Virus record (IMG/VR): IMGVR_UViG_3300009082_000021
Location: 1-64,000 of that record
Length of the DNA stretch: 64,000 bases
Strand: one strand, 5' to 3'
From: a virus
In this document: positions 652 to 40,732 of the stretch, piece after piece
How positions within the stretch are numbered: position 1 is the stretch's first letter
Layout: each line of letters begins with the position of its first letter
Position numbers and translations under genes: made by a program
The notes under the pieces: model-generated
Told to the model about the DNA's origin: nothing
What the model saw: only the letters and a program-made list of their open reading frames with translations
Databases searched by the model: none

Positions 652-798
652 CAAAAAAAGAAACCGAACGGGCGAGTGGGTAAGCTGTTTTGGTTGCGAT
701 GGCTGGATTTGAACCAGCTACACTCTGACTATTAGTCAGATGCTCTACCCAATGAGCTACGTCGTCTTGTAGGCTTGCCCTGTTGCCCGTTCGGTTTC
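652..798 (-). terminator. Terminator-like hairpin with a tRNA in its loop
   Basis: The arms 660-685 and 773-798 are inverted repeats of 26 bases with about five mismatches. On the minus strand the distal arm runs directly into TTTTTTT (652-659). That is the layout of an intrinsic terminator, except that its 87-base 'loop' holds a tRNA-like sequence (691-766). It closes the minus-strand tRNA array. Confidence 0.6.
691..766 (-). tRNA. tRNA-like gene, anticodon AAT by position (Ile?)
   Basis: The D-arm (TAGCTCATTGGGTAGAGC), a perfect 5-bp anticodon stem with loop CTAATAG, T-arm GCTGG-TTCAAAT-CCAGC and an encoded CCA are clear. The acceptor stem is poor: GACGACG against CATCGCA pairs at only 4 of 7 positions. 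A bacterial-type tRNA with A34 here is unusual. The decamer GCCTACAAGA directly precedes the acceptor. It may be a degenerate or processed-differently tRNA. Confidence 0.5.
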
Positions 799-897
799 AG
801 AGGTTGATCCGACATCTTTCCGTTTCCCTAACACGATCTCCCCGGATTACCGGCGACAGCGTTAGTGTACTAGGGCGGACAATCGGATCAGATAAGA

Positions 898-1051
898 GGT
901 CATGGGATGATGGGGGGACTTGAGGAGTTGAACCTCATCTTGTAGGCCCATCAGTTTGATCCCCGAAGAGATCGAGTAGTCGGGCGGGTACTCTTGATTC
1001 CACATCAAGTGCCTGTCCGCCAGGCTCTAGTCCCCCCACCATCCCATGACC
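898..1051. repeat. 24-base inverted repeat enclosing a tRNA-like gene
   Basis: Arms 898-921 and 1028-1051 are complementary over 24 bases with one G-U-compatible mismatch near the centre. They extend the acceptor stem of the enclosed tRNA-like sequence well beyond seven pairs. Confidence 0.7.
912..1037 (-). tRNA. tRNA-like gene with about 55-base insertion in the variable region (1)
   Basis: The acceptor arms GGGGGGACT/AGTCCCCCC pair over 9 bp. D-arm GCCTGGCGGACAGGC, anticodon stem CTTGA/TCAAG with loop TGTGGAA, and T-arm TGAGG-TTCAACT-CCTCA follow. Between anticodon and T arms lie about 55 bases: ACCCGCCCG, a hairpin GATCTC-TTCG-GGGATC, and GGGCCTACAAGA. Related insertions occur in the next two genes. 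By position the anticodon would be TGG with G33; shifted by one it is GGA (Ser). I leave identity open. Confidence 0.5.
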
Positions 1052-1055
1052 AAGG

Positions 1056-1179
1056 CGCCGGAGCTGGGAGTCGAACCCAGTTTCTTGTAGGCCCAATCTG
1101 GTGACCTCCGAAGAGATCGAGTGACCGAGCGGGTATTGATCGATGGAATAATCGATTGACCGCCGTGGTCGTCTCCGGC
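1056..1179 (-). tRNA. tRNA-like gene with about 55-base insertion in the variable region (2)
   Basis: Acceptor GCCGGAG/CTCCGGC and T-arm CTGGG-TTCGACT-CCCAG are perfect. The anticodon arm is the self-complementary ATCGAT...ATCGAT with a 6- or 8-base loop, so no anticodon can be assigned. The insertion matches the neighbour closely: ACCCGCTCGG, ACTCGATCTCTTCGG (a UUCG-capped hairpin), then GGGCCTACAAGA just before the T-arm. Confidence 0.5.
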
Positions 1180-1187
1180 AAAAGCAG

Positions 1188-1316
1188 TGGGGAGCCCTGG
1201 ATTCGAACCAGGATGTCTTGTAGGCCAGCCTTATTGGGACTCGAAAGTCCCGAGACGGTTAGCGGGTGTTTGCTTGATTTACCGTCAAGTGCCTTTACCA
1301 ATTCGGCCAGCTCCCC
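1188..1316 (-). tRNA. tRNA-like gene with about 55-base insertion in the variable region (3)
   Basis: Acceptor GGGGAGC/GCTCCCC, D-arm with AATTGGTAAA loop, anticodon stem CTTGA/TCAAG with loop CGGTAAA, and T-arm CCTGG-TTCGAAT-CCAGG are all present. The insertion carries ACACCCGC, a hairpin GGGACT-TTCG-AGTCCC and GGCCTACAAGA. By position the anticodon is GTA (Tyr) with G33 replacing U33; shifted by one it is TAA (Leu). Both amino acids use long variable arms, but not of this length. Confidence 0.5.
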
Positions 1317-1370
1317 ATTCACGGATCAGTATAGCGTCTCGTTTCAGTTTGTCAACAACTATTTCACCAG

Positions 1371-1444
1371 AGCCCTCGCCCGGATTTGAACCGGGGGCCT
1401 CCTGCTTACAAGGCAGGCGCTCTACCACCTGAGCTACAAGGGCT
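1371..1444 (-). tRNA. tRNA-Thr(TGT)
   Basis: Full cloverleaf: acceptor AGCCCTT/GAGGGCT, anticodon arm CCTGC-CTTGTAA-GCAGG, T-arm CCCGG-TTCAAAT-CCGGG. It lies directly downstream of a promoter motif at 1465-1493. Confidence 0.9.
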
Positions 1445-1464
1445 AGTTCTTGGTGGCACTACTT

Positions 1465-1493
1465 CTTATGCCACCGTACCTCGCCGTTTTTCA
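1465..1493 (-). promoter_or_regulatory. Promoter motif inside the tRNA array
   Basis: On the minus strand TGAAAAACG (1493-1485), exactly 12 bases, then GGCATAAG (1472-1465). This is the same bipartite motif found upstream of protein operons. It would restart transcription of tRNA-Thr(TGT) and the tRNA-like genes beyond it. Confidence 0.65.
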
Positions 1494-1498
1494 CTGGG

Positions 1499-1574
1499 TG
1501 CCGCCGACTGGATTCGAACCAGCACTGTCGTGCGCCTGGGGCACGCGCCTCCTACCAGTTGGGCTACAGCGGCA
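1499..1574 (-). tRNA. tRNA, anticodon CAG by position (Leu)
   Basis: Acceptor TGCCGCT/GGCGGCA, anticodon arm CGTGC-CCCAGGC-GCACG, T-arm GCTGG-TTCGAAT-CCAGT. The variable loop is short (5 bases), unlike usual bacterial tRNA-Leu. Position 33 is C instead of the near-universal U. Confidence 0.7.
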
Positions 1575-1577
1575 TGG

Positions 1578-1649
1578 AGCCGGAAGGAGGAGTCGAACCC
1601 CTTTGCCCCGCGTACGAAGCGGGTGATGGCCCGGCCATCAGCATCCGGC
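1578..1649 (-). tRNA. tRNA-Thr(CGT)
   Basis: Anticodon arm CCCGC-TTCGTAC-GCGGG, D-arm TGAT...ATCA, T-loop TTCGACT. The acceptor GCCGGAT/TTCCGGC has one mismatch at the base of the stem. Confidence 0.8.
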
Positions 1650-1650
1650 A

Positions 1651-1727
1651 TGGTCGGGGTGGCTAGAATCGAACTAGCTCCCTTCCGGTCCCGAACCGGA
1701 CGTGCACCCGTATGCACCTCACCCCGA
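1651..1727 (-). tRNA. tRNA-Pro(CGG)
   Basis: Acceptor TCGGGGT/CACCCCGA, anticodon arm TCCGG-TTCGGGA-CCGGA, T-arm GCTAG-TTCGATT-CTAGC, CCA encoded at 1653-1651. Confidence 0.9.
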
Positions 1728-1730
1728 GAC

Positions 1731-1800
1731 GAGCGGGTGCCAGGAATCTCACCTGGCCGGGTTGGGGTTGATCAGACCCCTTTCGTAACTCTCCCCGCTC
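1731..1800 (-). tRNA. Atypical tRNA, anticodon GAT (Ile?), reduced D-arm
   Basis: Acceptor GAGCGGG/CCCGCTC and anticodon arm GGGGT-CTGATCA-ACCCC are perfect. Only 13 bases separate acceptor and anticodon stems, so no normal D-arm fits. The T-loop reads TGAGATT rather than TTCRANN. A second, canonical GAT tRNA is at 3888. This copy may be degenerate. Confidence 0.45.
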
Positions 1801-1807
1801 GGATCGG

Positions 1808-1878
1808 AGCACCTGGCGGGAATCGAACCCGCGTTCTCTGGTTGGAAGCCAGAAACTCTGCCATTGAGTTACAGGTGC
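1808..1878 (-). tRNA. tRNA-Gly(TCC)
   Basis: Acceptor GCACCTG/CAGGTGC, anticodon arm TCTGG-CTTCCAA-CCAGA, T-arm GCGGG-TTCGATT-CCCGC. Confidence 0.92.
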
Positions 1879-1883
1879 GTCCC

Positions 1884-2024
1884 CTACTTCCAGATCACAG
1901 TCACGTTCTTCGGTGGTTTGTAGGGCTTGGTGCTCACCAGCACCTTCAGGGCCGGCTTCATGTTACAGGGATGGGCGAGGACCCCAATGATCGTGTCACA
2001 CTTCACGGTCTTCTGCTTCTTCAT
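1884..2024 (-). CDS. 46-residue basic peptide within the tRNA array
   Basis: ATG at 2024 with GGAGGTCAGG just upstream; the stop TAG is at 1886-1884. The product begins MKKQKTVKCDTIIGV and ends VTVIWK, is lysine-rich, and carries two cysteines (C9, C20). It fills exactly the space between tRNA-Gly(TCC) and tRNA-Gly(GCC), which with the strong ribosome site argues for a real gene. Function unknown. Confidence 0.65.
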   Translation of the reverse strand: MKKQKTVKCDTIIGVLAHPCNMKPALKVLVSTKPYKPPKNVTVIWK

Positions 2025-2037
2025 CCTGACCTCCTGG

Positions 2038-2108
2038 AGCACCCAGAGAGAATTGAACTCTCACCTCAGCCTTGGCAAGGCCACGTGCAGCCATAACACC
2101 TTGGGTGC
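2038..2108 (-). tRNA. tRNA-Gly(GCC)
   Basis: Acceptor GCACCCA/TGGGTGC, anticodon arm TGGCC-TTGCCAA-GGCTG, T-arm GAGAG-TTCAATT-CTCTC. Confidence 0.9.
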
Positions 2109-2140
2109 GCTATACTCCAGCATACACAAAGGAGACTGAA

Positions 2141-2290
2141 ATGCTTACACTGATCATGTGCCTTCTGCTCGCTCTCGCCGTCATCCTTGTCGGCTCTCCA
2201 AGCTGGAAGAACCCTCCCGTGGGAGTCGGGATGCTGATCGCACTCGCCGTGGTGATCATCAGTGTCTATCAGATGGTTGGGCATCGCTAG
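2141..2290 (+). CDS. 49-residue membrane peptide, opposite strand to the tRNA array
   Basis: ATG at 2141 preceded by AAAGGAGACTGAA and a TATACT-like -10 at 2111. The 49-residue product is almost entirely two hydrophobic segments (residues 2-18 and 28-44) joined by a SPSWKNPPVG turn, so a two-pass inner-membrane peptide is likely. It is the only plus-strand gene inside the array and ends one base before the 3' end of tRNA-Ser(GGA). Role unknown; small membrane peptides of phages often act on host membranes or lysis, but nothing here decides this. Confidence 0.7.
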   Translation: MLTLIMCLLLALAVILVGSPSWKNPPVGVGMLIALAVVIISVYQMVGHR

Positions 2291-2373
2291 CGGAGACGGC
2301 GAGGGTCGAACTCGCATGGGTGTTACCCCAGTACGCTTTCCAAGCGTATCTGCTTCCATTACAGCACGTCTCC
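2291..2373 (-). tRNA. tRNA-Ser(GGA)
   Basis: Class II tRNA: acceptor GGAGACG/CGTCTCC, anticodon arm TACGC-TTGGAAA-GCGTA, long variable arm CTGGGGTAACACCCAT, T-arm GCGAG-TTCGACC-CTCGC, discriminator G. Confidence 0.92.
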
Positions 2374-2377
2374 AGGG

Positions 2378-2465
2378 CGGAAGGGGGGAGAGTCGAACTC
2401 CCAGTGGCGTTACCCACACTCGCTTAGCAGGCGAGCACATGGCACCGTTGCATGACGGCCCTTCC
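2378..2465 (-). tRNA. tRNA-Ser(GCT)
   Basis: Class II: acceptor GGAAGGG/CCCTTCC, anticodon arm CTCGC-CTGCTAA-GCGAG, variable arm TGTGGGTAACGCCACT, discriminator G. Confidence 0.92.
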
Positions 2466-2526
2466 AAACGGACCACAAAGGCCGCAGCGTCCTCGCGATG
2501 GAAAGCTACGACAGAGTGTGGCCCGG

Positions 2527-2600
2527 CGGGTGCGACGAGGATCGAACTCGCCTACTCCTGGCTGACAACCAGGCGTCCACAACCAGTGGACCTCGCACCC
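2527..2600 (-). tRNA. tRNA-Asp(GTC)
   Basis: Acceptor GGGTGCG/CGCACCC, anticodon arm CCTGG-TTGTCAG-CCAGG, T-arm GCGAG-TTCGATC-CTCGT. Confidence 0.92.
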
Positions 2601-2722
2601 TCATCCCCCTCCTCAAGCAACCTCTGATTGATCTCCGCGTCATACCTCTGGGGATCTTGAAGGAAGCACAGTGCCAGTGCTACCAACACATCCTCGATCT
2701 CTCCTCGTTCCTCTTTAGTCAT
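2552..2722 (-). CDS. 56-residue acidic peptide overlapping tRNA-Asp
   Basis: ATG at 2722 with a GGGAGAA ribosome site. The first 40 residues (MTKEERGEIEDVLVALALCF...) form a plausible amphipathic helix and lie between tRNAs. The last 16 codons are inside tRNA-Asp, so the C-terminus is constrained by the tRNA. The gene could equally be an expressed leader without selected C-terminus. Function unknown. Confidence 0.4.
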   Translation of the reverse strand: MTKEERGEIEDVLVALALCFLQDPQRYDAEINQRLLEEGDEGARSTGCGRLVVSQE

Positions 2723-2735
2723 CGTTTTCTCCCAG

Positions 2736-2818
2736 CGGTAGGGGAGGGACTCGAACCCTCAAGGGCAGGGCCCCTGCCCGCTTTCGAAGCGGGTTCCTCA
2801 TCCAGCCGGATCCCTACC
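2736..2818 (-). tRNA. tRNA-Ser(CGA)
   Basis: Class II: acceptor GGTAGGG/CCCTACC, anticodon arm CCCGC-TTCGAAA-GCGGG, variable arm CAGGGGCCCTGCCCTT, discriminator G. Confidence 0.92.
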
Positions 2819-3057
2819 TAGCGATACCACTTCCTGAGATGAAAGGGCCGTCCGTTCTTCGTTCCAGCCCAAGTCCAGAATGTGCCTTTGCTCTCTGCCC
2901 GAACGGCTGCTCGTTTCACATCCCGCTCAAAGTTGACGACTTCACGGGACAGGGAATTCGCAGCCATCTGAGCACGGATAATACGATCATGGCAGCTCGA
3001 ACAGAAGCCATCACAAGTCATTGGCATGTTGCAGTAGGAGCTAGTGGAAGCGATCAT
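2818..3057 (-). CDS. 79-residue cysteine-containing protein
   Basis: ATG at 3057 after GGGAGGAATAG. N-terminal cysteines C8, C15, C19 and C22 with H23 (pattern C-x6-C-x3-C-x2-CH) suggest a small metal-binding site. The rest is basic with tryptophans (TFWTWAGTKNGR). It fills the interval between tRNA-Ser(CGA) and the next gene and its stop touches the tRNA 5' end. Function unknown. Confidence 0.75.
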   Translation of the reverse strand: MIASTSSYCNMPMTCDGFCSSCHDRIIRAQMAANSLSREVVNFERDVKRAAVRAESKGTFWTWAGTKNGRPFHLRKWYR

Positions 3058-3077
3058 CTATTCCTCCCGGTGTCCGC

Positions 3078-3398
3078 CTACCTAATTGTAGACCGCCGCT
3101 CTTTCTTCCTTCGAACCGACTTCTTGTCCTTCTTGTTCTTCTTCCACCACTTCTTCGGCTTGTGAATAGGCATGACGTACGACACGCAGCAGTTGTCGTG
3201 GCAGACAACTGATCGTGCCTGAACCCGCCTTCCACATACCGGACAAACGAGGATCACCTTCTTGTAGGGCAGCTTGTGAAAGACATGACCGCTGTCGAAG
3301 ATATCGATGACGTGTCTGGGTGTACCAACGATGAGCGGATTTCCGTCGTAGTAGGAGCACTTGCCTTCTAGCAACGGATGCTTCTTATCAGAACTCAT
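3078..3398 (-). CDS. 106-residue basic zinc-ribbon-like protein
   Basis: The ATG at 3398 is chosen because AAGGAGGCTTTC precedes it; an upstream in-frame ATG would translate tRNA-Ser(TGA). The cysteines CPVCG (57-61) and CHDNCC (70-75) resemble a small zinc ribbon. The C-terminus is extremely basic (KKWWKKNKKDKKSVRRKKERR), which suggests nucleic-acid binding. Nested between tRNAs; no family recognised. Confidence 0.75.
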   Translation of the reverse strand: MSSDKKHPLLEGKCSYYDGNPLIVGTPRHVIDIFDSGHVFHKLPYKKVILVCPVCGRRVQARSVVCHDNCCVSYVMPIHKPKKWWKKNKKDKKSVRRKKERRSTIR

Positions 3399-3409
3399 GA
3401 AAGCCTCCT

Positions 3410-3497
3410 TGGCGGAGAGAGAGGGATTCGAACCCCCGGGGCTGTCACACCCTTCGGTTTTCAGGACCGACGCCTTGAGCCACTCGGCCATCTCTCC
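3410..3497 (-). tRNA. tRNA-Ser(TGA)
   Basis: Class II: acceptor GGAGAGA/TCTCTCC, anticodon arm TCGGT-CCTGAAA-ACCGA, variable arm AGGGTGTGACAGCCCC, T-arm GGGGG-TTCGAAT-CCCTC, CCA encoded. Position 33 is C, not U. Confidence 0.9.
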
Positions 3498-3498
3498 T

Positions 3499-3635
3499 CA
3501 CTCGGGCAGGATCTCCTCCTGCATCTCTGTCTCAGCAAGCCAGCTTACGCCTACTCTCTCCGAGACAGCGTTCTCTTTAGGCCCCCAGGGATCCACCAAG
3601 GGCTGGGTGTCGAGCACCATTGAACTATCCGAGTG
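3499..3635 (-). ncRNA. tRNA-like sequence with long internal insertion
   Basis: The ends pair as a 7-bp acceptor CACTCGG/CCGAGTG. The 5' side continues with a D-arm-like ATAGTTCAATGGTGCTCGAC, and the 3' side has a stem GCAGG/CCTGC with a 7-base loop AGGAGAT where a T-arm should be. Total length is 137 bases; the middle holds a 7-bp hairpin CTGTCTC/GAGACAG and GGGCCTAAAGAGA, resembling the decamer of the genes at 912-1316. No anticodon can be assigned. Confidence 0.4.
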
Positions 3636-3636
3636 G

Positions 3637-3709
3637 TGGAACCGGCGAGAGTTGAACTCGCTACCTCCCGCATGCCGAGCGGGCGCTCTCCCAAATGAGC
3701 TACGGCCCC
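3637..3709 (-). tRNA. tRNA-Ala(GGC)
   Basis: Acceptor GGGGCCG/CGGTTCC (two G-U pairs), anticodon arm CCCGC-TCGGCAT-GCGGG, T-arm GCGAG-TTCAACT-CTCGC, CCA follows at 3636-3634. Position 33 is C, not U. Confidence 0.88.
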
Positions 3710-3710
3710 A

Positions 3711-3782
3711 TGGAACCGCAGGGAATCGGACCCTGACCTCCGCGTTGCGAACGCGGCGTGCTCCCATTATCACTACGGCCCC
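3711..3782 (-). tRNA. tRNA-Ala(CGC)
   Basis: The same acceptor as the neighbouring Ala tRNA (GGGGCCG/CGGTTCC), anticodon arm CCGCG-TTCGCAA-CGCGG, T-arm CAGGG-TCCGATT-CCCTG. The pair probably arose by duplication. Confidence 0.88.
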
Positions 3783-3814
3783 GAATCGAAAACAAGAGAC
3801 GATCTTATTAGCAA

Positions 3815-3885
3815 GGTGACCGGTGGAAGTCGAATCCACACCCCTGGGGCCACAACCCAGTGCTCTACCGTTGAGCTACGGCCAC
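3815..3885 (-). tRNA. tRNA-His(GTG)
   Basis: Acceptor GTGGCCG/CGGTCAC with discriminator C as expected for His, anticodon arm CTGGG-TTGTGGC-CCCAG, T-arm GTGGA-TTCGACT-TCCAC. Confidence 0.9.
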
Positions 3886-3887
3886 AG

Positions 3888-3962
3888 TCCGCCAGGCTGG
3901 ATTCGAACCAGCGACCTATCGCTTATCAAGCGATTGCTCTTGCCAAGCTGAGCTACTAGCGG
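3888..3962 (-). tRNA. tRNA-Ile(GAT)
   Basis: Acceptor CCGCTAG/CTGGCGG, anticodon arm ATCGC-TTGATAA-GCGAT, T-arm GCTGG-TTCGAAT-CCAGC. Confidence 0.92.
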
Positions 3963-4450
3963 TTTCTTGATCGCCAACTCCTCACAGCTCTCGCTGTGGC
4001 AGCCCTACACTCACGACAACGACATCTGTGGTACCTGTACCCCGACACAGTCCCATGAACAAACTCTCGGCTTCCACGCAATTTAGCCTGCTGTGCCTGC
4101 ACCTGATGAGATCGGCAACAGTAGAATTCCTTCTGCCCTCTCTTGGCTCTCTCCCGATACTTCCTACTCAAAATCTCGAATTCGTCTGCACACCAAGCAC
4201 AGTTCAAGCTGATCATAGACGCCGGGACGTGATGATCTGCAACGTGCCTAGAGACTGTCTTCTTCTCCAGATTCCGGTAACGGTTGTCTTGCTTGTCCGT
4301 GTTCTTGTGGTGCACCACGAAGCCTGTGTCTGGCACCTCCCCCGTGTTCCTCCACCAGACCACATGATGCTCGTAGGCATAGCGTCCACGATACCGCTTT
4401 CCAGGGTATTCCTCGGGGGCAACGATCAAGATGTAGTCTCCGTTCTTCAT
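3956..4450 (-). CDS. HNH endonuclease (homing-type)
   Basis: 164 residues. Residues 27-62 carry the HNH core seen in phage homing nucleases: EHHVVWW at 27-33, GFVVHHKN at 43-50 and DNRYRNL at 55-61. A second part has CAWC and CC cysteine pairs and a C-terminal HGTVSGYRYHRCRCREC motif, which recurs in phage proteins and probably binds zinc or DNA. GAGGTG precedes the ATG at 4450. The gene sits between tRNA-Asn and tRNA-Ile, overlaps the latter by 7 bases, and has a tRNA 5'-half fragment directly upstream, as expected of a mobile nuclease that inserted in a tRNA array. Confidence 0.88.
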   Translation of the reverse strand: MKNGDYILIVAPEEYPGKRYRGRYAYEHHVVWWRNTGEVPDTGFVVHHKNTDKQDNRYRNLEKKTVSRHVADHHVPASMISLNCAWCADEFEILSRKYRERAKRGQKEFYCCRSHQVQAQQAKLRGSREFVHGTVSGYRYHRCRCRECRAATARAVRSWRSRNR

Positions 4451-4454
4451 GTTC

Positions 4455-4480
4455 TACGCACCTCACCACTAGACTACACC
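4455..4480 (-). pseudogene. tRNA 5'-half remnant upstream of the HNH gene
   Basis: Minus strand GGTGTAGTCTAGTGGTGAGG, continuing to GTGC, reads as the end of an acceptor and a complete D-arm. The anticodon and T arms are missing; the HNH start codon follows within 10 bases. It probably marks a tRNA disrupted by the HNH insertion. Confidence 0.5.
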
Positions 4481-4499
4481 ATCTCCTAAGTCATTGCAA

Positions 4500-4573
4500 T
4501 GGCTCTGGGACCCGGATTCGAACCGAGAAGAGGTGGTTAACAGCCACCCATGATACCATTTCATCATCCCAGA
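4500..4573 (-). tRNA. tRNA-Asn(GTT)
   Basis: Acceptor TCTGGGA/TCCCAGA, anticodon arm GGTGG-CTGTTAA-CCACC, T-arm CTCGG-TTCGAAT-CCGGG, CCA encoded. Confidence 0.92.
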
Positions 4574-4574
4574 A

Positions 4575-4603
4575 CGGGCGCTACTACCTCTGAGCTACAC
4601 CGG
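4575..4603 (-). pseudogene. Second tRNA 5'-half remnant
   Basis: Minus strand CCGGTGTAGCTCAGAGG, continuing to AGTAGCGCCCG, is an acceptor end plus D-arm that stops at the anticodon stem and abuts tRNA-Asn. No 3' half is nearby. Confidence 0.5.
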
Positions 4604-4622
4604 AATGATCTGGGGAGGGGGA

Positions 4623-4808
4623 CTACTGGACGATGGGAGCTGCGTCTACGACCGCGGCCTCTTTGACCACGGATGCTTCCTTGGCCACCGAGGCTTCCAC
4701 CTGGACAGATGCCTCAACCTTGGGTCCAGCGTCCGGTTTGGGAACGACGGTGTCGTCGCTGCAAGCCACGAAGAACAGACTGAGAATGATCGCTAGTGTT
4801 AGTCTCAT
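4623..4808 (-). CDS. Small lipoprotein with Val/Ala/Glu/Lys repeats
   Basis: ATG at 4808 with an AGGAGGAATCC ribosome site. 61 residues: a short basic start, a hydrophobic stretch LTLAIILSLFFVA and a lipobox ending in C16, so signal peptidase II processing and lipid attachment are predicted. The mature part repeats six-residue units (VEASVQ, VEASVA, KEASVV, KEAAVV), giving a short extended or coiled segment. Phage lipoproteins of this size include Rz1-type spanins and superinfection-exclusion factors; no partner gene is next to it, so I do not choose. Confidence 0.82.
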   Translation of the reverse strand: MRLTLAIILSLFFVACSDDTVVPKPDAGPKVEASVQVEASVAKEASVVKEAAVVDAAPIVQ

Positions 4809-4844
4809 GGATTCCTCCTGTGCCCTGAGGATAGCACAACTCGG

Positions 4845-4918
4845 TCGGGATGAGAGGATTTGAACCTCCGACCCCCTGGTCCCAGGCCAGGTGCGCTACC
4901 AGGCTGCGCTACATCCCG
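4845..4918 (-). tRNA. tRNA-Pro(TGG)
   Basis: Acceptor CGGGATG/CATCCCG, anticodon arm CCTGG-CCTGGGA-CCAGG, T-arm GGAGG-TTCAAAT-CCTCT. Position 33 is C, not U. Confidence 0.9.
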
Positions 4919-4921
4919 AAG

Positions 4922-4992
4922 ATCCCCCGGCAGGAATCGAACCTGCGTACCTGGGGCCAAAGTCCAGGGCCCTACCATTAGACGACGGGGGA
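4922..4992 (-). tRNA. tRNA-Gln(TTG)
   Basis: Acceptor TCCCCCG/CGGGGGA, anticodon arm CTGGA-CTTTGGC-CCCAG (one mismatch next to the loop), T-arm GCAGG-TTCGATT-CCTGC. Confidence 0.88.
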
Positions 4993-4997
4993 AGAAG

Positions 4998-5070
4998 TGG
5001 AGAGGACAGGAATCGAACCTGCATGTCGGCTTTTTCAGAGCCGCGCCGTGACCACGTAGGCTACCTCTCC
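4998..5070 (-). tRNA. tRNA-Phe(GAA)
   Basis: Acceptor GGAGAGG/CCTCTCC, anticodon arm CGGCT-CTGAAAA-AGCCG, T-arm GCAGG-TTCGATT-CCTGT. Confidence 0.92.
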
Positions 5071-5129
5071 AGGAGCCCCACCAGTCTCCGCTCAAAAGGA
5101 ACTTCACAGACCCATGGAGCTGCGCGCGG

Positions 5130-5201
5130 TGGGCACGGAGGGAATCGAACCCTCATCACCCGGTTATGAGCCAGGGGCTTGCACCCTCCAGCTACATGCC
5201 C
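5130..5201 (-). tRNA. tRNA-Met(CAT)
   Basis: Acceptor GGGCATG/CGTGCCC, anticodon arm CCTGG-CTCATAA-CCGGG, T-arm GAGGG-TTCGATT-CCCTC. Its acceptor pairs at position 1-72, so it looks like elongator rather than initiator Met; a lysidine-modified Ile2 tRNA cannot be excluded. Confidence 0.88.
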
Positions 5202-5282
5202 ACGATGTGGCTGGGAGATCATCGCCTTGCGGCTCCTTCCCAGCCTGACCACAACCTCACTATTCTCGTGTCAATCACCACC

Positions 5283-5337
5283 GGAGACGCTGGGGATACG
5301 GCCTCAGCTCCCGTCCTGATTCTCCCAGGACGTCTCC
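5283..5337 (-). ncRNA. Small tRNA-like hairpin structure in a 138-base tRNA gap
   Basis: A 7-bp outer stem GGAGACG/CGTCTCC, identical to the acceptor of tRNA-Ser(GGA), encloses TCCTG-GGAGAAT-CAGGA (5-bp stem, 7-base loop) and a 4-bp GGGA/TCCC arm. No T-loop signature. The rest of the gap 5202-5339 shows no gene. Confidence 0.25.
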
Positions 5338-5339
5338 AA

Positions 5340-5414
5340 TGGTTCGGGGACGAGGACTCGAACCTCGTAGTGCGGATCCAGAGTCCGCCGGTTTGCCTGG
5401 TAGCCTATCCCCGA
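5340..5414 (-). tRNA. tRNA-Gln(CTG)
   Basis: Acceptor TCGGGGA/TCCCCGA, anticodon arm GCGGA-CTCTGGA-TCCGC, T-arm CGAGG-TTCGAGT-CCTCG, CCA encoded. Confidence 0.9.
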
Positions 5415-5415
5415 G

Positions 5416-5487
5416 TGGGTGCGAAAGGAGTCGAACCTTCAACCTCGTGGTTAAGAGCCACTTGCGCTCCCATTGCGCCACGCACCC
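5416..5487 (-). tRNA. tRNA-Lys(CTT)
   Basis: Acceptor GGGTGCG/CGCACCC, anticodon arm AGTGG-CTCTTAA-CCACG, T-arm GAAGG-TTCGACT-CCTTT. Confidence 0.9.
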
Positions 5488-5488
5488 A

Positions 5489-5704
5489 TTACCATTTCAC
5501 AGCCTCATCCGCTTCGAACGTGACCTCCATCTCCAGTTCCACCACCCTGTTCAGGAACTTCCTCTTCGGCTTCGTGCCACCGGCAGGAGTTGAACCTGCA
5601 ACCTCGGGAGTAAAAGTCCCTTGCTCTTCCAGTTGAGCTACGGAGGCGGGTCTCTGAGACTCTGCCTCGCGTTTCAACCGCCAATCGAACTCTCTGATCG
5701 TCAT
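5489..5704 (-). CDS. Possible 71-residue protein spanning tRNA-Lys(TTT)
   Basis: ATG at 5704 has a clear GGAGGCAAC ribosome site and a natural N-terminus (MTIREFDWRLKREAES). The middle 24 codons are the tRNA-Lys gene itself; the end (FLNRVVELEMEVTFEADE) is again protein-like. Either the frame is translated through the tRNA, or only the leader is expressed. Dual use of one segment as tRNA and protein would be unusual. Confidence 0.35.
   Translation of the reverse strand: MTIREFDWRLKREAESQRPASVAQLEEQGTFTPEVAGSTPAGGTKPKRKFLNRVVELEMEVTFEADEAVKW
5575..5647 (-). tRNA. tRNA-Lys(TTT)
   Basis: Acceptor GCCTCCG/CGGTGGC, anticodon arm AGGGA-CTTTTAC-TCCCG, T-arm GCAGG-TTCAACT-CCTGC. Confidence 0.92.
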
Positions 5705-5715
5705 GTTGCCTCCAG

Positions 5716-5793
5716 TGGAGCGGGGAGGACTCGAACCTCCGCGTGGTGTGCCTGGGTTACAGCCAGGTGCCGTCGCCGCTGGGCCACCGCTCC
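5716..5793 (-). tRNA. tRNA-Tyr(GTA)
   Basis: Acceptor GGAGCGG/CCGCTCC, anticodon arm CCTGG-CTGTAAC-CCAGG, 10-base variable region, T-arm GGAGG-TTCGAGT-CCTCC. First tRNA of the array, just after the terminator at 5796-5838. Confidence 0.9.
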
Positions 5794-30833: not shown

Positions 30834-30842
30834 CCCCACCTG

Positions 30843-30871
30843 AAGAGATCAAAACTTGATCTCTTCTTTAG
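30843..30871 (+). terminator. Terminator of the small-gene cluster
   Basis: Hairpin AGAGATCAA-AAC-TTGATCTCT followed by TCTTTAG. The next promoter motif begins inside the stem. Confidence 0.8.
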
Positions 30872-30878
30872 GTATAAG
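30850..30878 (+). promoter_or_regulatory. Bipartite promoter motif (non-coding/32092 unit)
   Basis: CAAAACTTG, 12 bases, GGTATAAG (30871-30878). The upstream box is part of the terminator hairpin, so termination and initiation share sequence. The first gene with a ribosome site is 1.2 kb downstream. Confidence 0.65.
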
Positions 30879-31263
30879 AGCCTTGCCACGAGATACACAC
30901 TTATTGATCTGGGAGACGCTAGATAGCGTGTGGTGTCGGAGGGTAATACGACGGAGGTCCTGGGTGTAGGGGCCGAGCAACGTCCGGCTGCCTTGGTACT
31001 GAACAAGGGGCGGTCGGTGGAACATGGTGGCGTCAGGACTGTGGGTATGCGGCGCGGGACAGGCTGTGGGTAGCAGCGGCCGATAGGAAGTCTGGGGTGG
31101 CGATGAACAGTCCATCGGAGCAATCGGGGCGATGGAAGATGTGGGGTAGAGCAAGCCTGTTGGATCTATCTGGCACATGGCCTTGCTCATTTCTGGGGAT
31201 CTGTGGGTACAAGAGGCCGAGGGACATGTTGTCTATTGTGCGGCGGGCTGGTGGGAAATGATC

Positions 31264-31280
31264 TTCAGCGGTTCGTCCGC
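31264..31280 (+). repeat. Hairpin repeat, copy 1
   Basis: TTCAGCGGTTCGTCCGC, able to fold as GCGG-TTCG-(T)CCGC. It is followed by a second hairpin (CTCAGG...CCTGAG) and AGAATCTCGAGAGG. Confidence 0.85.
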
Positions 31281-31687
31281 GTGTCTCAGGTGTTCCTCGA
31301 CCTGAGAAGAATCTCGAGAGGGCAGCCTTCCTGTCTGTGTTGGAGGAGGTCTGAACGCCGAAGTGTTCAAAGTCTGGGGAAGGGCAAGCCTGTTGGAAAG
31401 AAGCGTCGAGGTAGCTGCGATCTCACTCAGGTGGGCCAGAGTATCGCTGCGAGGGAGGGGCGTATGGAAGGCAAGAATGGATGCATGACGGAAAGTCTTC
31501 TAGGGAGCATGTCGAGGCGCATTGGCGCGAGTCGGTCTGATGCAAGGTGGGAGAGTAGATGCCTTGCTTGTCTGTACCGTCAGAGGGCGGGTTATGGAAT
31601 GGTCAGGTGGTGGAGTCGGTAGGCACTGCTGGGTGGATGCAGTCCAGTGGGTAGTCAGTTTCGGATGGATGCACGCGTGGCATTTGT

Positions 31688-31704
31688 TTCAGCGGTTCGT
31701 CCGC
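31688..31704 (+). repeat. Hairpin repeat, copy 2
   Basis: Identical 17 bases, again followed by a hairpin with different sequence but the same position (TCCTGGG...CCCAGGA) and the same AGAATCTCGAGAGG. Confidence 0.85.
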
Positions 31705-32003
31705 GCGTCCTGGGAGACCCCTCGGACCCAGGAAGAATCTCGAGAGGGATCATGTTCGTCTGAAGGCAGGTAGGGAAGATCGTGGGTAGGGAGGGGATGG
31801 CTTCCGCACGAAAGATTGAACTCAAACTGTCTATAGAATTGGGGCGACGGTAGGAGAGAAGGTGGTCCAGGGAGGAGGTAGTAGGATCATAGCTACCTTC
31901 GGCATGTCGGGGCGGCGGAGATAGAGTAGTGGCGGGCGTGGGTGGAGACGAGGGTCGTAGTTTCCTGGGGGTGGGTATCAGATCGGGATTGCTCGATCTT
32001 TTC

Positions 32004-32020
32004 TTCAGCGGTTCGTCCGC
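32004..32020 (+). repeat. Hairpin repeat, copy 3
   Basis: Identical 17 bases; the second hairpin and AGAATCTCGAGAGG are absent. It lies 72 bases ahead of the 32092 start codon. Confidence 0.85.
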
Positions 32021-32091
32021 ATTCCTTTCACAGGCTTGGGCACTCACTGGGGAGTTGTCCAAGCTACAACAATGATCAGTCGGAGGATCAG

Positions 32092-33282
32092 ATGCAACCA
32101 GCTACGCCCGAAGGCCGGCAATCCGCTGGCAAACCGAGTGGAACCAACAAGGAGACGAGGCCGGGTGGGAATGGCCACGGGGTGAGGGTGGAAGGCATCA
32201 AGTTCACCAAGAAGGACAACTGGCTCGACTTCCTCCTGGTCCTGGCCTACGACATCGGCTCTAGGGGCCAGGCCACCGTGAGCGATGTGCTCCACGATGT
32301 GGAGATCAAGTTCAACTGCACCTTCCACGGCAACCGGGGGCTGAACATGGTCTCGGACGGGCTCGAGGCCCTCCGCAAGCAGGACCTCCTCGCAGAAGCC
32401 CAGAACGCTGACGGGCAGGGCGTGTTCTCCCTGAAGCGCATCAAGTTCAACTGCAACCCGGCCCTGGTCTCCATGAAGGCCATGATCGAGGAGCTGAAGT
32501 CGGACTCCACGGGCATGCTCATCATCGAGCGGTTCACCGCGGGGGAGGGAGCCAAGCAGGTCAAGGAACGGCCCGAGGAGCCGGCGGACTTCCTCATCGA
32601 GTACCTGCTGCTGTGGCCCATCCTCGGCTCCCAGGTCTGGGCTGGGAACCTCTACCTCCAGGAGATGTACTTCGCCCTGGGGAAGTACCTCACCCTTCAC
32701 GAGACCAACCCGGACGGCACCATCAAGCTCGACAAGAACGGCAACAGAGTCATGAAGGAGGAGTTCTCTGATCACACGGACGTCCCCCTCATGTTCGAGC
32801 GTGGAACGGATTGCATCGTGGCGGCTCACACTGCCACCATCTCCGGCTTCCTCGAGAAGGCGTTCGAAGCCTTCCCGCCCTCCACCTACGCCAAGAGGGG
32901 TTATCAGGCGAGAGAGTTCATCGGCAGCGCCCCCATCGTGATCAATCCGCCATCCATCACCATCGAGAAGAAACCCGTCATCCGCAATGAGAAGGGTGTG
33001 GGGCAGGGAGGGCAAGCGTGCGGCCTTCGCAACTACGAGGTGATCAAACCGGGGGTTCAGCTCACCCTCGAGATCGCGTGCTGCACCAAGAACTTCATCA
33101 CCCCGCCCGAGATGTACAAGTGGCTCAAGCGTGTGCTGCGGATGCCGATCCGCTCCATGTCCCCAGCCAGAGGCAAGCAGACGGGCGGAGCCAAGCTCTT
33201 GAGCCTGAAGTATCGTCCCTGGTCCTCCGACAGCGACGACTACCAGGAGGTTCCCGATCCCAGAAACGGGGCCTCCAAGTAG
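32092..33282 (+). CDS. 396-residue unknown protein, possibly RNA-binding
   Basis: ATG at 32092 with CGGAGGATCAG. A polar N-terminal tail (residues 1-35), a winged-helix-like region (SRGQATVSDVLHDVEI ... GLEALRKQDLL, about 58-100), a helical middle, and a C-terminal part whose order (VIRNEKGVGQGGQ, PGVQLTLEI, ITPPEMYKWLKR, SPARGKQTGGAKLL) recalls the 'G-rich loop ... PG ... sPaRG...G.f' layout of some phage RAMP-like proteins. That resemblance is from memory and weak. It is the only gene of a 2.7-kb unit otherwise made of G-rich RNA, so a ribonucleoprotein role is an attractive guess, not a result. Confidence 0.8.
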   Translation: MQPATPEGRQSAGKPSGTNKETRPGGNGHGVRVEGIKFTKKDNWLDFLLVLAYDIGSRGQATVSDVLHDVEIKFNCTFHGNRGLNMVSDGLEALRKQDLLAEAQNADGQGVFSLKRIKFNCNPALVSMKAMIEELKSDSTGMLIIERFTAGEGAKQVKERPEEPADFLIEYLLLWPILGSQVWAGNLYLQEMYFALGKYLTLHETNPDGTIKLDKNGNRVMKEEFSDHTDVPLMFERGTDCIVAAHTATISGFLEKAFEAFPPSTYAKRGYQAREFIGSAPIVINPPSITIEKKPVIRNEKGVGQGGQACGLRNYEVIKPGVQLTLEIACCTKNFITPPEMYKWLKRVLRMPIRSMSPARGKQTGGAKLLSLKYRPWSSDSDDYQEVPDPRNGASK

Positions 33283-33576
33283 GACTGCGTAGGGGGTAGG
33301 AAGGGTATTCTGTGGGACGGGCCTATGGTCGGGATGCGTTGTAGCGCGGATGAATGTGGGTGATGGGACTTGTTGGGCTGGATGGATCCCGGAGTAATGG
33401 AGGGGCGGCTCGCTCGGCAAGATGATCGGAAGAGGGAGTTCGTCTTGAAACGATGTGCCGATGGACATGCCCAGTGCCGGGAGGCGGGAAGGATGGAATG
33501 AGTTGCGGCTTGGATTCTAGTGACTACCGCTCTTCGGAGCGCACTCACGGCTGGCGCCCGTGAGGAAGTCTGAGCC
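33283..33576 (+). ncRNA. G-rich structured 3' region of the 32092 unit
   Basis: The same G-rich composition as 30879-32091, no supported frame. Ends with two strong hairpins: CGCTC-TTCG-GAGCG and CTCACGG...CCGTGAG, then the terminator. Confidence 0.55.
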
Positions 33577-33604
33577 AAGCCGGGGATCATCCCCGGCTTC
33601 TTTA
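33577..33604. terminator. Terminator of the 32092 unit
   Basis: AAGCCGGGGATCATCCCCGG-type perfect stem (AAGCCGGGG / CCCCGGCTT) followed by CTTTAG; convergent with the minus gene ending at 33602. Confidence 0.85.
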
Positions 33605-39339: not shown

Positions 39340-39543
39340 ATGCCGGATACGACAATCAAGTGCAAGGGATGCAACACAGACTTCATCTTCACGGAGGGCG
39401 AGGAGAGCTTCCTCCGTGAGAAGTTCGGCGATGACTTCTCCCCGCCCAAGTACTGCAAGCCGTGCCGTCAGGCACGGAAGGCCGAGAAGGCCAAGGGTGG
39501 GGAACGAGAAGACCGACAGCCCCCCCGCCAGAACCGCCGCTAG
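39340..39543 (+). CDS. Zinc-ribbon protein (probable zf-trcl type)
   Basis: 67 residues: CKGCNTDFIFTEGEE (8-22), then KYCKPCRQARK (about 40-50), the layout of the 'probable zinc-ribbon' family (C-x2-C-x2-F.FT.GEQ..F...G....P..C..CR). Basic, Arg/Gln-rich tail. CGGAGGAATCAC upstream. Confidence 0.85.
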   Translation: MPDTTIKCKGCNTDFIFTEGEESFLREKFGDDFSPPKYCKPCRQARKAEKAKGGEREDRQPPRQNRR

Positions 39544-39944
39544 TCTTCGCCTACCTCATCAGGAAGAAGGTCCTCATCGGCCTTCTTCTTTAACTCCCCA
39601 TCCAGTTCTCGAAGCCGTTGAGGTGAAAGCCGGCGAGAGAGGCAGGTTGATAGATCTGGGCAAGCCGGATAATCTGAGATCCCGTAGCAGAGAATGCCGT
39701 GCTTGTGTGGGGGATTCTGGTAGAAGAGGCAGTAGGTCTTGAGTTTCTTGATCTTCCCGTCAATCTCCGCCTGGGGGACACGGCCACCAAATCGTATTGA
39801 GAGGATTGGGGCGTGAGTCACTTCTTTCTCCAATCCCACCAGTGTTGGATCATTCTTAGCTCCATACGATCCAACCACGGTATCGCGTAGACCGGCAAAG
39901 TCAAGTGGGAAAACGGCATAAGAACACTTGATCAAGAACCACAA
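39540..39944 (-). CDS. 134-residue protein, start uncertain
   Basis: TTG start at 39944 with GAAGG upstream, or GTG at 39878 (112 residues). The latter avoids coding through the plus-strand promoter at 39894-39922. Globular with PHKHGILCYGISDYPACPD and an acidic end. Convergent with the zinc-ribbon gene by four bases. Confidence 0.55.
   Translation of the reverse strand: MWFLIKCSYAVFPLDFAGLRDTVVGSYGAKNDPTLVGLEKEVTHAPILSIRFGGRVPQAEIDGKIKKLKTYCLFYQNPPHKHGILCYGISDYPACPDLSTCLSRRLSPQRLRELDGELKKKADEDLLPDEVGED
39894..39922 (+). promoter_or_regulatory. Bipartite promoter motif (39969 operon)
   Basis: GGCAAAGTC, 12 bases, GGCATAAG (39915-39922); 46 bases ahead of the TTG start at 39969. Confidence 0.68.
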
Positions 39945-39968
39945 CTAGCCTTCAACAGGAGGTGTTCT

Positions 39969-40520
39969 TTGAGCGAGAAAAGCTACGAGTTGCGCGTACG
40001 GATAGTTCTGGAGGAGGACGCAGATGGAGACCTGCCTGACCACGAAGACCTTGGCGAGATGGTGGAAGAGGTGGTGTGGGCGAAGCTGAAAAAGCGTCTA
40101 AAAGCCATGATCGTGGAGGAAGATGCTCTCTCCAGCGATCTTTCCCATCCGCGAGCGGTCGTCAAAGCTTTGGACCGCATCAGTGAGTACGTCACGATGA
40201 TTGGGGCGCGTTTTGAGGAGGGCTCTTTCAATGACGTCACGAAGAAGGGACTTGAGAAACTCACCGTGGGCGTCTCCTACCTTCAGGGTTGCATGGCTGT
40301 CATCATGGACGTCGCCGATCGTATGGCGGCCTCTCACCACCATCTCGAGGTCAAGCACCTCACACCAGAGACCTTGTCCGAGGCGCCAGAACCCCTGCTT
40401 CATTTCGTGGCCCATGAAATGGGATTGGAGAACTGCGCGGGCATGGACAAGCCAGCCCTCGTGGAGTGGATCAAGGCCAAGATCGAAGAGAAGAAGCAGA
40501 GCATACCCAAGCCGAACTAG
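39969..40520 (+). CDS. 183-residue helical protein
   Basis: TTG start at 39969 supported by ACAGGAGGTGTTCT. Acidic and helical; the C-terminal EPLLHFVAHEMGLENCAGMDKPALVEWIKAKIEEKK is a SAP-like or helix-extended-loop-helix pattern. No family recognised. Confidence 0.75.
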   Translation: MSEKSYELRVRIVLEEDADGDLPDHEDLGEMVEEVVWAKLKKRLKAMIVEEDALSSDLSHPRAVVKALDRISEYVTMIGARFEEGSFNDVTKKGLEKLTVGVSYLQGCMAVIMDVADRMAASHHHLEVKHLTPETLSEAPEPLLHFVAHEMGLENCAGMDKPALVEWIKAKIEEKKQSIPKPN

Positions 40521-40528
40521 GAGGATGA

Positions 40529-40732
40529 ATGGACCCCAATGTCGCACTTGAGCGACTGCGTCGCTTGGCCGCTCAAGTGCTGAAAGACATCGACCACGAG
40601 TCGCATAGCCACATACGAACTACCCGGGACACGACAGGCGATGAGCTGGCCCAGCTTTTCGATGTCCTGGACAAATGGATCACTGGTGGGGGCTTTCTCC
40701 CCCGTGACTGGAGAAAGGAATGCGGCCACTAG
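40529..40732 (+). CDS. 67-residue protein
   Basis: ATG at 40529 with AGGAGGATGA. Helical, ALERLRRLAAQVLKDIDH then TTGDELAQLFDVLDKW, a pattern frequent in small phage proteins. Confidence 0.74.
   Translation: MDPNVALERLRRLAAQVLKDIDHESHSHIRTTRDTTGDELAQLFDVLDKWITGGGFLPRDWRKECGH

Follow-up and report, generated by a model that had tools for sequence, protein, structure and literature searches.

A phage locus of G-rich tracts phased every four nucleotides around a single gene probably works like the VIPR guide-RNA system

A locus in an uncultured tailed phage probably works in the manner of VIPR (Viral Interference Programmable Repeat), as a cassette of guide RNAs combined with the protein that coats them. 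The DNA analyzed, henceforth referred to as the window, is a stretch of 64 kb from a 68,079-base IMG/VR contig. Within it, one protein gene is embedded in ~1.5 kb of non-coding, G-rich DNA that has a four-nucleotide periodicity and carries four tail-like elements with covarying stems. The same anatomy was found around RAMP genes in relatives of the phage.

The main text of the preprint describing VIPR (bioRxiv 2026, PMC13142463) presents it as a means by which viruses find and silence rival DNA with patterned RNAs. The system comprises a phage RAMP protein, Vipr, and its vrRNAs, which are discrete small RNAs that Vipr binds and by which it is directed to DNA. Each vrRNA consists of a tract of tandem 5-nt units, YNNGG (GGY/NN), followed by a structured and conserved 3' tail, and DNA is recognized through the NN positions by a one-nucleotide-skip code. 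Vipr is a protein of ~20 kDa with a RAMP fold that includes an RRM core, a G-loop and a thumb. In the minimal phage locus, the vipr gene is flanked by long intergenic guide-coding DNA; in SUSP1, the model phage of that study, one guide lies before the gene and three after it. The same text mentions types with "a related consensus" and proposes that CRISPR class 1 effectors descend from VIPR.

The window contains genes of a contractile-tail phage, including those for a tail sheath and a major head protein. An array of 25 tRNA genes occupies positions 691–5793 on the minus strand. The unit of interest, all features of which lie on the plus strand, comprises the gene with 1.2 kb of DNA upstream and 0.3 kb downstream of it, between two terminators that had been proposed in a preliminary description and were again recognized here. 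The upstream one, read from the sequence, is an intrinsic-terminator-like hairpin at 30842–30869 (11 bp, 3-nt loop, followed by TTT) that appears to close the preceding operon; it was not flagged by a terminator scanner. The downstream one, also read from the sequence, is a strong hairpin with a T-run at 33575–33604 (AGCCGGGG-AUCAU-CCCCGGCU-UCUUU), directly after the last structured element; a weak SorX match placed its terminator stem here. The single gene of 396 codons was likewise recovered as an open reading frame at 32092–33282 with a GGAGG site upstream, and a codon-usage model trained on the contig found no gene in most of the 1.2 kb preceding it, as the preliminary description had held. 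The promoter motif noted there was not borne out, as a promoter scanner found no sigma-70-like promoter. Base composition is indeed the same on both sides of the gene, with 38% G and 19% C at 30879–32091 and 40% G and 20% C at 33283–33604, while that of the gene between them is balanced. No comparable G skew over 1 kb was found elsewhere in the window.

Both the four-nucleotide periodicity of G and the four structured elements had escaped the preliminary description. The G-rich DNA is divided into tracts of tetrads, each with an anchor position that is mostly G or U. Tract S2 (31419–31682) runs through 66 successive tetrads without a change of frame (58 of 66 anchors G/U) and gives the strongest signal. 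Tracts S3 (31754–31977; 56 tetrads, 52 anchors G/U) and S4 (33292–33523; 58 tetrads, 51 anchors G/U) each also keep one frame, so that S2–S4 run in a single frame over 56–66 units with 88–93% G/U anchors. S1 is weaker and its frame is broken, with a weak phase in S1a (30918–31105; 36 of 47 anchors G/U) and a four-nucleotide phase in S1b (31127–31258; 28 of 33). Among 260 tetrads in all, G occupies the anchor in 66%, T in 21%, A in 9% and C in 5% (G/U 87%), percentages that are somewhat inflated because frame and anchor were picked by fit. The position preceding the anchor is G-biased (42%), and the two positions following it are near even in composition and differ between tracts.

The mean local Fourier power of G at period 4 across S1–S4 was 2.23, compared to 1.02 (s.d. 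0.17) for 1,500 random equal-length sets drawn from related phage DNA, none of which reached the value of the tracts (z 7.1). Against dinucleotide shuffles, G alone gave a z-score of 7.3 and G or T together one of 8.9, with none of 300 shuffles reaching the observed power. These z-scores are not inflated by the choice of frame, since the statistic is free of phase. In the same Fourier test of the tracts, period 5 gave a z-score of 0.2, periods 5, 6, 7, 8 and 10 were all ordinary, and power at period 3 was low, as in non-coding DNA. A cyclic hidden Markov model gained 36 nats at period 4; other periods gave 0–11 nats, and shuffled sequence no more than 9 nats. In a period-4 scan of 4 Mb, the S2 stretch ranked only fourth, which indicates that chance or coding DNA also produces single stretches of that strength elsewhere; the case for the period therefore rests on the agreement of three of the four adjacent tracts.

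One structured element follows each tract, and all four share the plan of a short hairpin, a linker and a second hairpin. The first hairpin, GCGG-UUCGU-CCGC, is identical in three of the four copies and is replaced by CGCUC-UUCG-GAGCG in the fourth; its 15-mer occurs three times, against an expectation of 0.18 when as many as two mismatches are tolerated. The second stems differ in all four copies yet are fully paired. In E1 (31262–31322), the second hairpin is formed by UCUCAGGU/ACCUGAGA and followed by GAAGAAUCUCGAGAGGG, with CUCAGGU/ACCUGAG as the pairing segments. The second stem of E2 (31686–31748), UCCUGGG/CCCAGGA with CCUGGG/CCCAGG as its core, takes the same position as that of E1 but has another sequence. 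The corresponding stems are GGCUUGG/CCAAGCU in E3 (32002–32065) and CUCACGG/CCGUGAG in E4 (33522–33576). The structural evidence for these elements is this compensation, from four copies only; in the lowest-energy predicted folds, E1 and E3 form both hairpins, E4 forms just the first and E2 forms neither. Because each element comes after a tract and the last one abuts the terminator, the elements are read as 3' tails, and E1 is proposed to be the tail of guide RNA 1.

Element patterns gave seven matches among viral contigs, which were read as chance, and another pattern set gave three. Rfam covariance models, including those of GOLLD and ROOL, matched nothing in the unit, nor did Rfam match any of six array-bearing loci. 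A hammerhead or other ribozyme was considered for E1–E4 and rejected, there being no CUGANGA/GAAA core and no Rfam match. A repeat search for a CRISPR array in the unit returned only the element copies and short pairs, with no near-identical direct repeats separated by spacers. Two further repeats were observed. The upstream block contains six copies of the heptamer GTGGGTA (31041, 31066, 31203, 31647, 31782 and 31971; 0.26 expected from shuffling), and two guide tracts of SUSP1 end in TGGGTA just before the tail; the motif may mark guide ends. Near-identical 23-mers, TGGGG[TA]AG[AG]GCAAGCCTGTTGGA, lie outside the elements at 31142–31164 and 31375–31397 and were assigned to S1 and S2.

The gene product, P0001, is a candidate RAMP protein resembling Vipr, with the putative RAMP part at about residues 230–390. 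Residues 305–330 (QGGQACGLRNYEVIKPGVQLTLEIAC) were aligned, by eye and with hhalign, on the strand pair that precedes the last helix and the G-loop of Viprs; in this alignment the segment RGKQTGGAK coincides with the Vipr G-loop. P0001 scored 21.5 against the Viprs in hhalign at a probability of ~1%, compared to at most 15.8 for all 22 other window proteins, and one of 60 shuffles scored higher. When undoubted Viprs were withheld from the profile, they scored between 26.7 (SUSP1) and 53, which indicates that the Vipr family is hard to detect by sequence. Profile searches of P0001 gave no match in Pfam, PHROG, PADLOC or PDB. Homologs were found neither in IMG/VR viral contigs or 85,000 genomes with exact 8-mer seeds, nor in phages and plasmids by tblastn, nor in 35 related virus records. 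Two AlphaFold (AF2) runs produced no confident model (pLDDT 39 and 36). The weak profile match and the anatomy of the locus are no more than suggestive of a RAMP fold.

Relatives of the phage were located through the major head protein, which yielded 302 related stretches. Thirteen of those virus records, including the contig of the window, were scanned for long non-coding G-skewed stretches. A scan of GC skew alone returned only coding regions in the relatives, and counterparts of the locus were recovered once a coding model was added. Two relatives contain such G-rich non-coding blocks. In IMGVR_UViG_3300017987_000006 (G017), a 1.2 kb block (39.4–40.6 kb) lies beside a gene for a 273-residue protein; in IMGVR_UViG_3300044981_000338 (G019), blocks of 0.6 and 0.9 kb, 1.5 kb in total, flank a gene for a 257-residue protein on both sides. 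The two proteins share 35% identity and match RAMP families (PADLOC Csm3 at 1e-5 and Csm4 at 2e-4; PDB Csm3 at 3e-4), and by these matches they are undoubtedly RAMP proteins of a Csm3/Csm4/Cas6-like kind. The blocks show a 5-nt autocorrelation of G with z-scores up to 8.7, and the hidden Markov gain for G017 was 116 nats at period 5. Both loci fit VIPR as the preprint (PMC13142463) describes it.

Within these 5-nt arrays (G017 39500–40605; G019 161925–162490 and 163300–164150), TGTC[A/G] recurs at spacings of 23, 28, 33 and 38 nt, that is, 5k+3, which implies that the frame of the array shifts at each motif. They are possibly of the "staggered, overlapping" type named in the preprint's main text (PMC13142463). 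In both phages the guide strand is opposite to that of the RAMP gene. A 5-nt-phased G-rich array was also observed on the strand opposite to a RAMP-like gene, annotated as hypothetical, at the genome end of Microcystis phage Mae-JY09 (PP395641, 37713–38976).

The Mae-JY09 array served as one control for the scans. SUSP1 was another, and there they picked up clean GGTNN tracts. A placement of its Vipr at 72.9–75.2 kb proved wrong, the phased tracts putting it at 28.5–29.1 kb. In a further control, 5-nt arrays were found to adjoin Vipr-like genes of three gut phages. These genes are unannotated, and the arrays lie at 4600–5110 in L190 (MT835520), 3100–3400 in L194 (MT835513) and 2276–2473 in L193 (MT835477); their repeat letters look unlike GGYNN and may represent a further consensus.

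Compared to VIPR as set out in the main text of the preprint, the window locus is likewise phage-encoded, with one main gene amid long non-coding DNA, G-anchored short tandem units with hypervariable positions, and a structured element after each tract in the manner of the vrRNA 3' tail. As in SUSP1, guides would flank the gene on either side and share its strand, here with three before it and one after. The unit of the window locus is 4 nt, [g][G/U]NN, in contrast to the 5-nt GGY/NN of VIPR; its S2–S4 tracts are 56–66 units long rather than 9–16; its protein has 396 residues and no clear sequence similarity to the ~20 kDa Vipr; and no separate accessory (vap) gene was seen. The loci of G017, G019 and Mae-JY09 share with it the same anatomy of phased G-rich RNA beside a RAMP gene, and the first two also belong to the same phage group by capsid, but they differ in having a 5-nt phase, the regularly spaced TGTC[A/G] motif, a guide strand opposite the gene and a RAMP protein recognizable by sequence. 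The proteins of the relatives belong to the fold family of the CRISPR-Cas class 1 RAMPs (Csm3, Csm4, Cas6 and Cas7). Unlike class 1 systems, the window locus has neither CRISPR repeats nor other cas genes, and the units here and in the relatives are 4 or 5 nt, whereas CRISPR class 1 uses a 6-nt spacing on a continuous spacer. TIGR-Tas, which needs a Nop-domain protein, was also considered for the locus and dropped.

In the proposed mechanism, three guide RNAs would be transcribed from the DNA upstream of the gene and one from the DNA downstream, each made of a long tract of [G-biased][G/U]NN units and a structured 3' tail (E1–E4). P0001, as a divergent RAMP, would coat the tract and grip the G/U anchor of every unit, so that the variable nucleotides stay exposed and spell a non-contiguous code by which DNA is recognized; the probable purpose would be to silence competing phages or satellites. 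If P0001 is a RAMP, the locus would be a 4-nt version of the VIPR code. The chances are about even that it represents a guide-RNA system in which a RAMP-like protein reads a non-contiguous tetranucleotide code of G/U-anchored units in tracts of ~60, distinct from the 5-nt VIPR and 6-nt CRISPR rules, in which case the spacing rule from RNA to DNA would have evolved between phage families. The locus was not filed as VIPR because no 5-nt repeat was detected in it and the RAMP fold of P0001 is putative. Several results were counted against the VIPR-like reading, namely the lack of a 5-nt signal, of a P0001 homolog and of an informative AlphaFold model, the weak RAMP call and the length of the tracts. 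The search for targets counted in the same direction: at skips of 0, 1 or 2, 4 Mb of related and control phage DNA yielded no match of 22 bases, and an 8-unit S2 pattern matched 17 IMG/VR contigs, about the number estimated to arise by chance, none of which extended. Both searches are weak tests of targeting.

The preliminary description had argued that non-coding DNA retained in this genome must have a use, and a functional RNA unit that belongs with the protein gene is very likely. Its suggestion that the RNA is coated by the encoded protein comes close to the reading preferred here, in which the coated RNA would in addition guide the protein to DNA. A structural phage RNA bound by an unrelated protein in a 4-nt register, as a scaffold or sponge with no sequence-specific targeting, is an unlikely alternative: a protein that coats filaments would fit unbroken tracts of 56–66 units in such a register, a RAMP fold of P0001 is unproven, and targets were found neither in 4 Mb nor by the IMG/VR pattern search, but the two positions after the anchor are near random and vary from tract to tract, as stored information would, and the RAMP genes of the relatives adjoin phased arrays with the same anatomy. 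Decayed coding sequence or functionless, low-complexity G-skewed filler is very unlikely; among the collections searched, the P0001 region was seen in this phage alone, yet codons cannot yield a 4-nt period, four elements have compensated stems, and the same phased G-rich sequence flanks the gene on both sides.

Two explanations based on RNA folding are less credible again. A large ornate RNA of the GOLLD or ROOL kind would be phage-encoded, more than 1 kb long, non-coding and at home in a tRNA-rich phage, as is the case here, but we consider it highly improbable given the lack of an Rfam match and a fold no better than that of dinucleotide shuffles (z −0.77 for the whole upstream part, 0.36 for the downstream part). 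Outside E1–E4, the constraint is the 4-nt phase and not helices, and of the many hairpins of the preliminary description only the four repeated elements stood. A sponge for a CsrA/RsmA-type regulator, with GGA in hairpin loops, is scarcely credible. The preliminary description gave ~45 GGA triplets; the count is 45 upstream (mean 35, s.d. 4.7 in mononucleotide shuffles), and another 20 lie downstream (mean 9.3, s.d. 2.5), an excess that is modest upstream and clear downstream. Predicted folds place only 3 of the 45 and 3 of the 20 in hairpin loops, and a sponge leaves the 4-nt G/U phase unexplained; since so few GGA are in loops and G is enriched at a regular 4-nt step instead of in loops, this suggestion is unsupported. 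For a replication or packaging element, which had also been raised, there is no indication.

Whether the locus is an undescribed system, as first suggested, receives a divided answer: loci of the same anatomy in the relatives match published VIPR, whereas a 4-nt repeat does not appear in the main text of PMC13142463. The supplement of that preprint may already include a 4-nt type, in which case the locus belongs to a known type; otherwise it is new. The 5-nt unit of VIPR sets how the RNA is read against DNA. If the VIPR-like reading is true, the existence of a 4-nt unit in a related phage locus would mean that this register is not fixed, would offer a natural test of the protein features that set the step, and may provide a new programmable DNA reader. 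As the phages concerned share a capsid protein, the 4-nt and 5-nt versions are directly comparable within one group.
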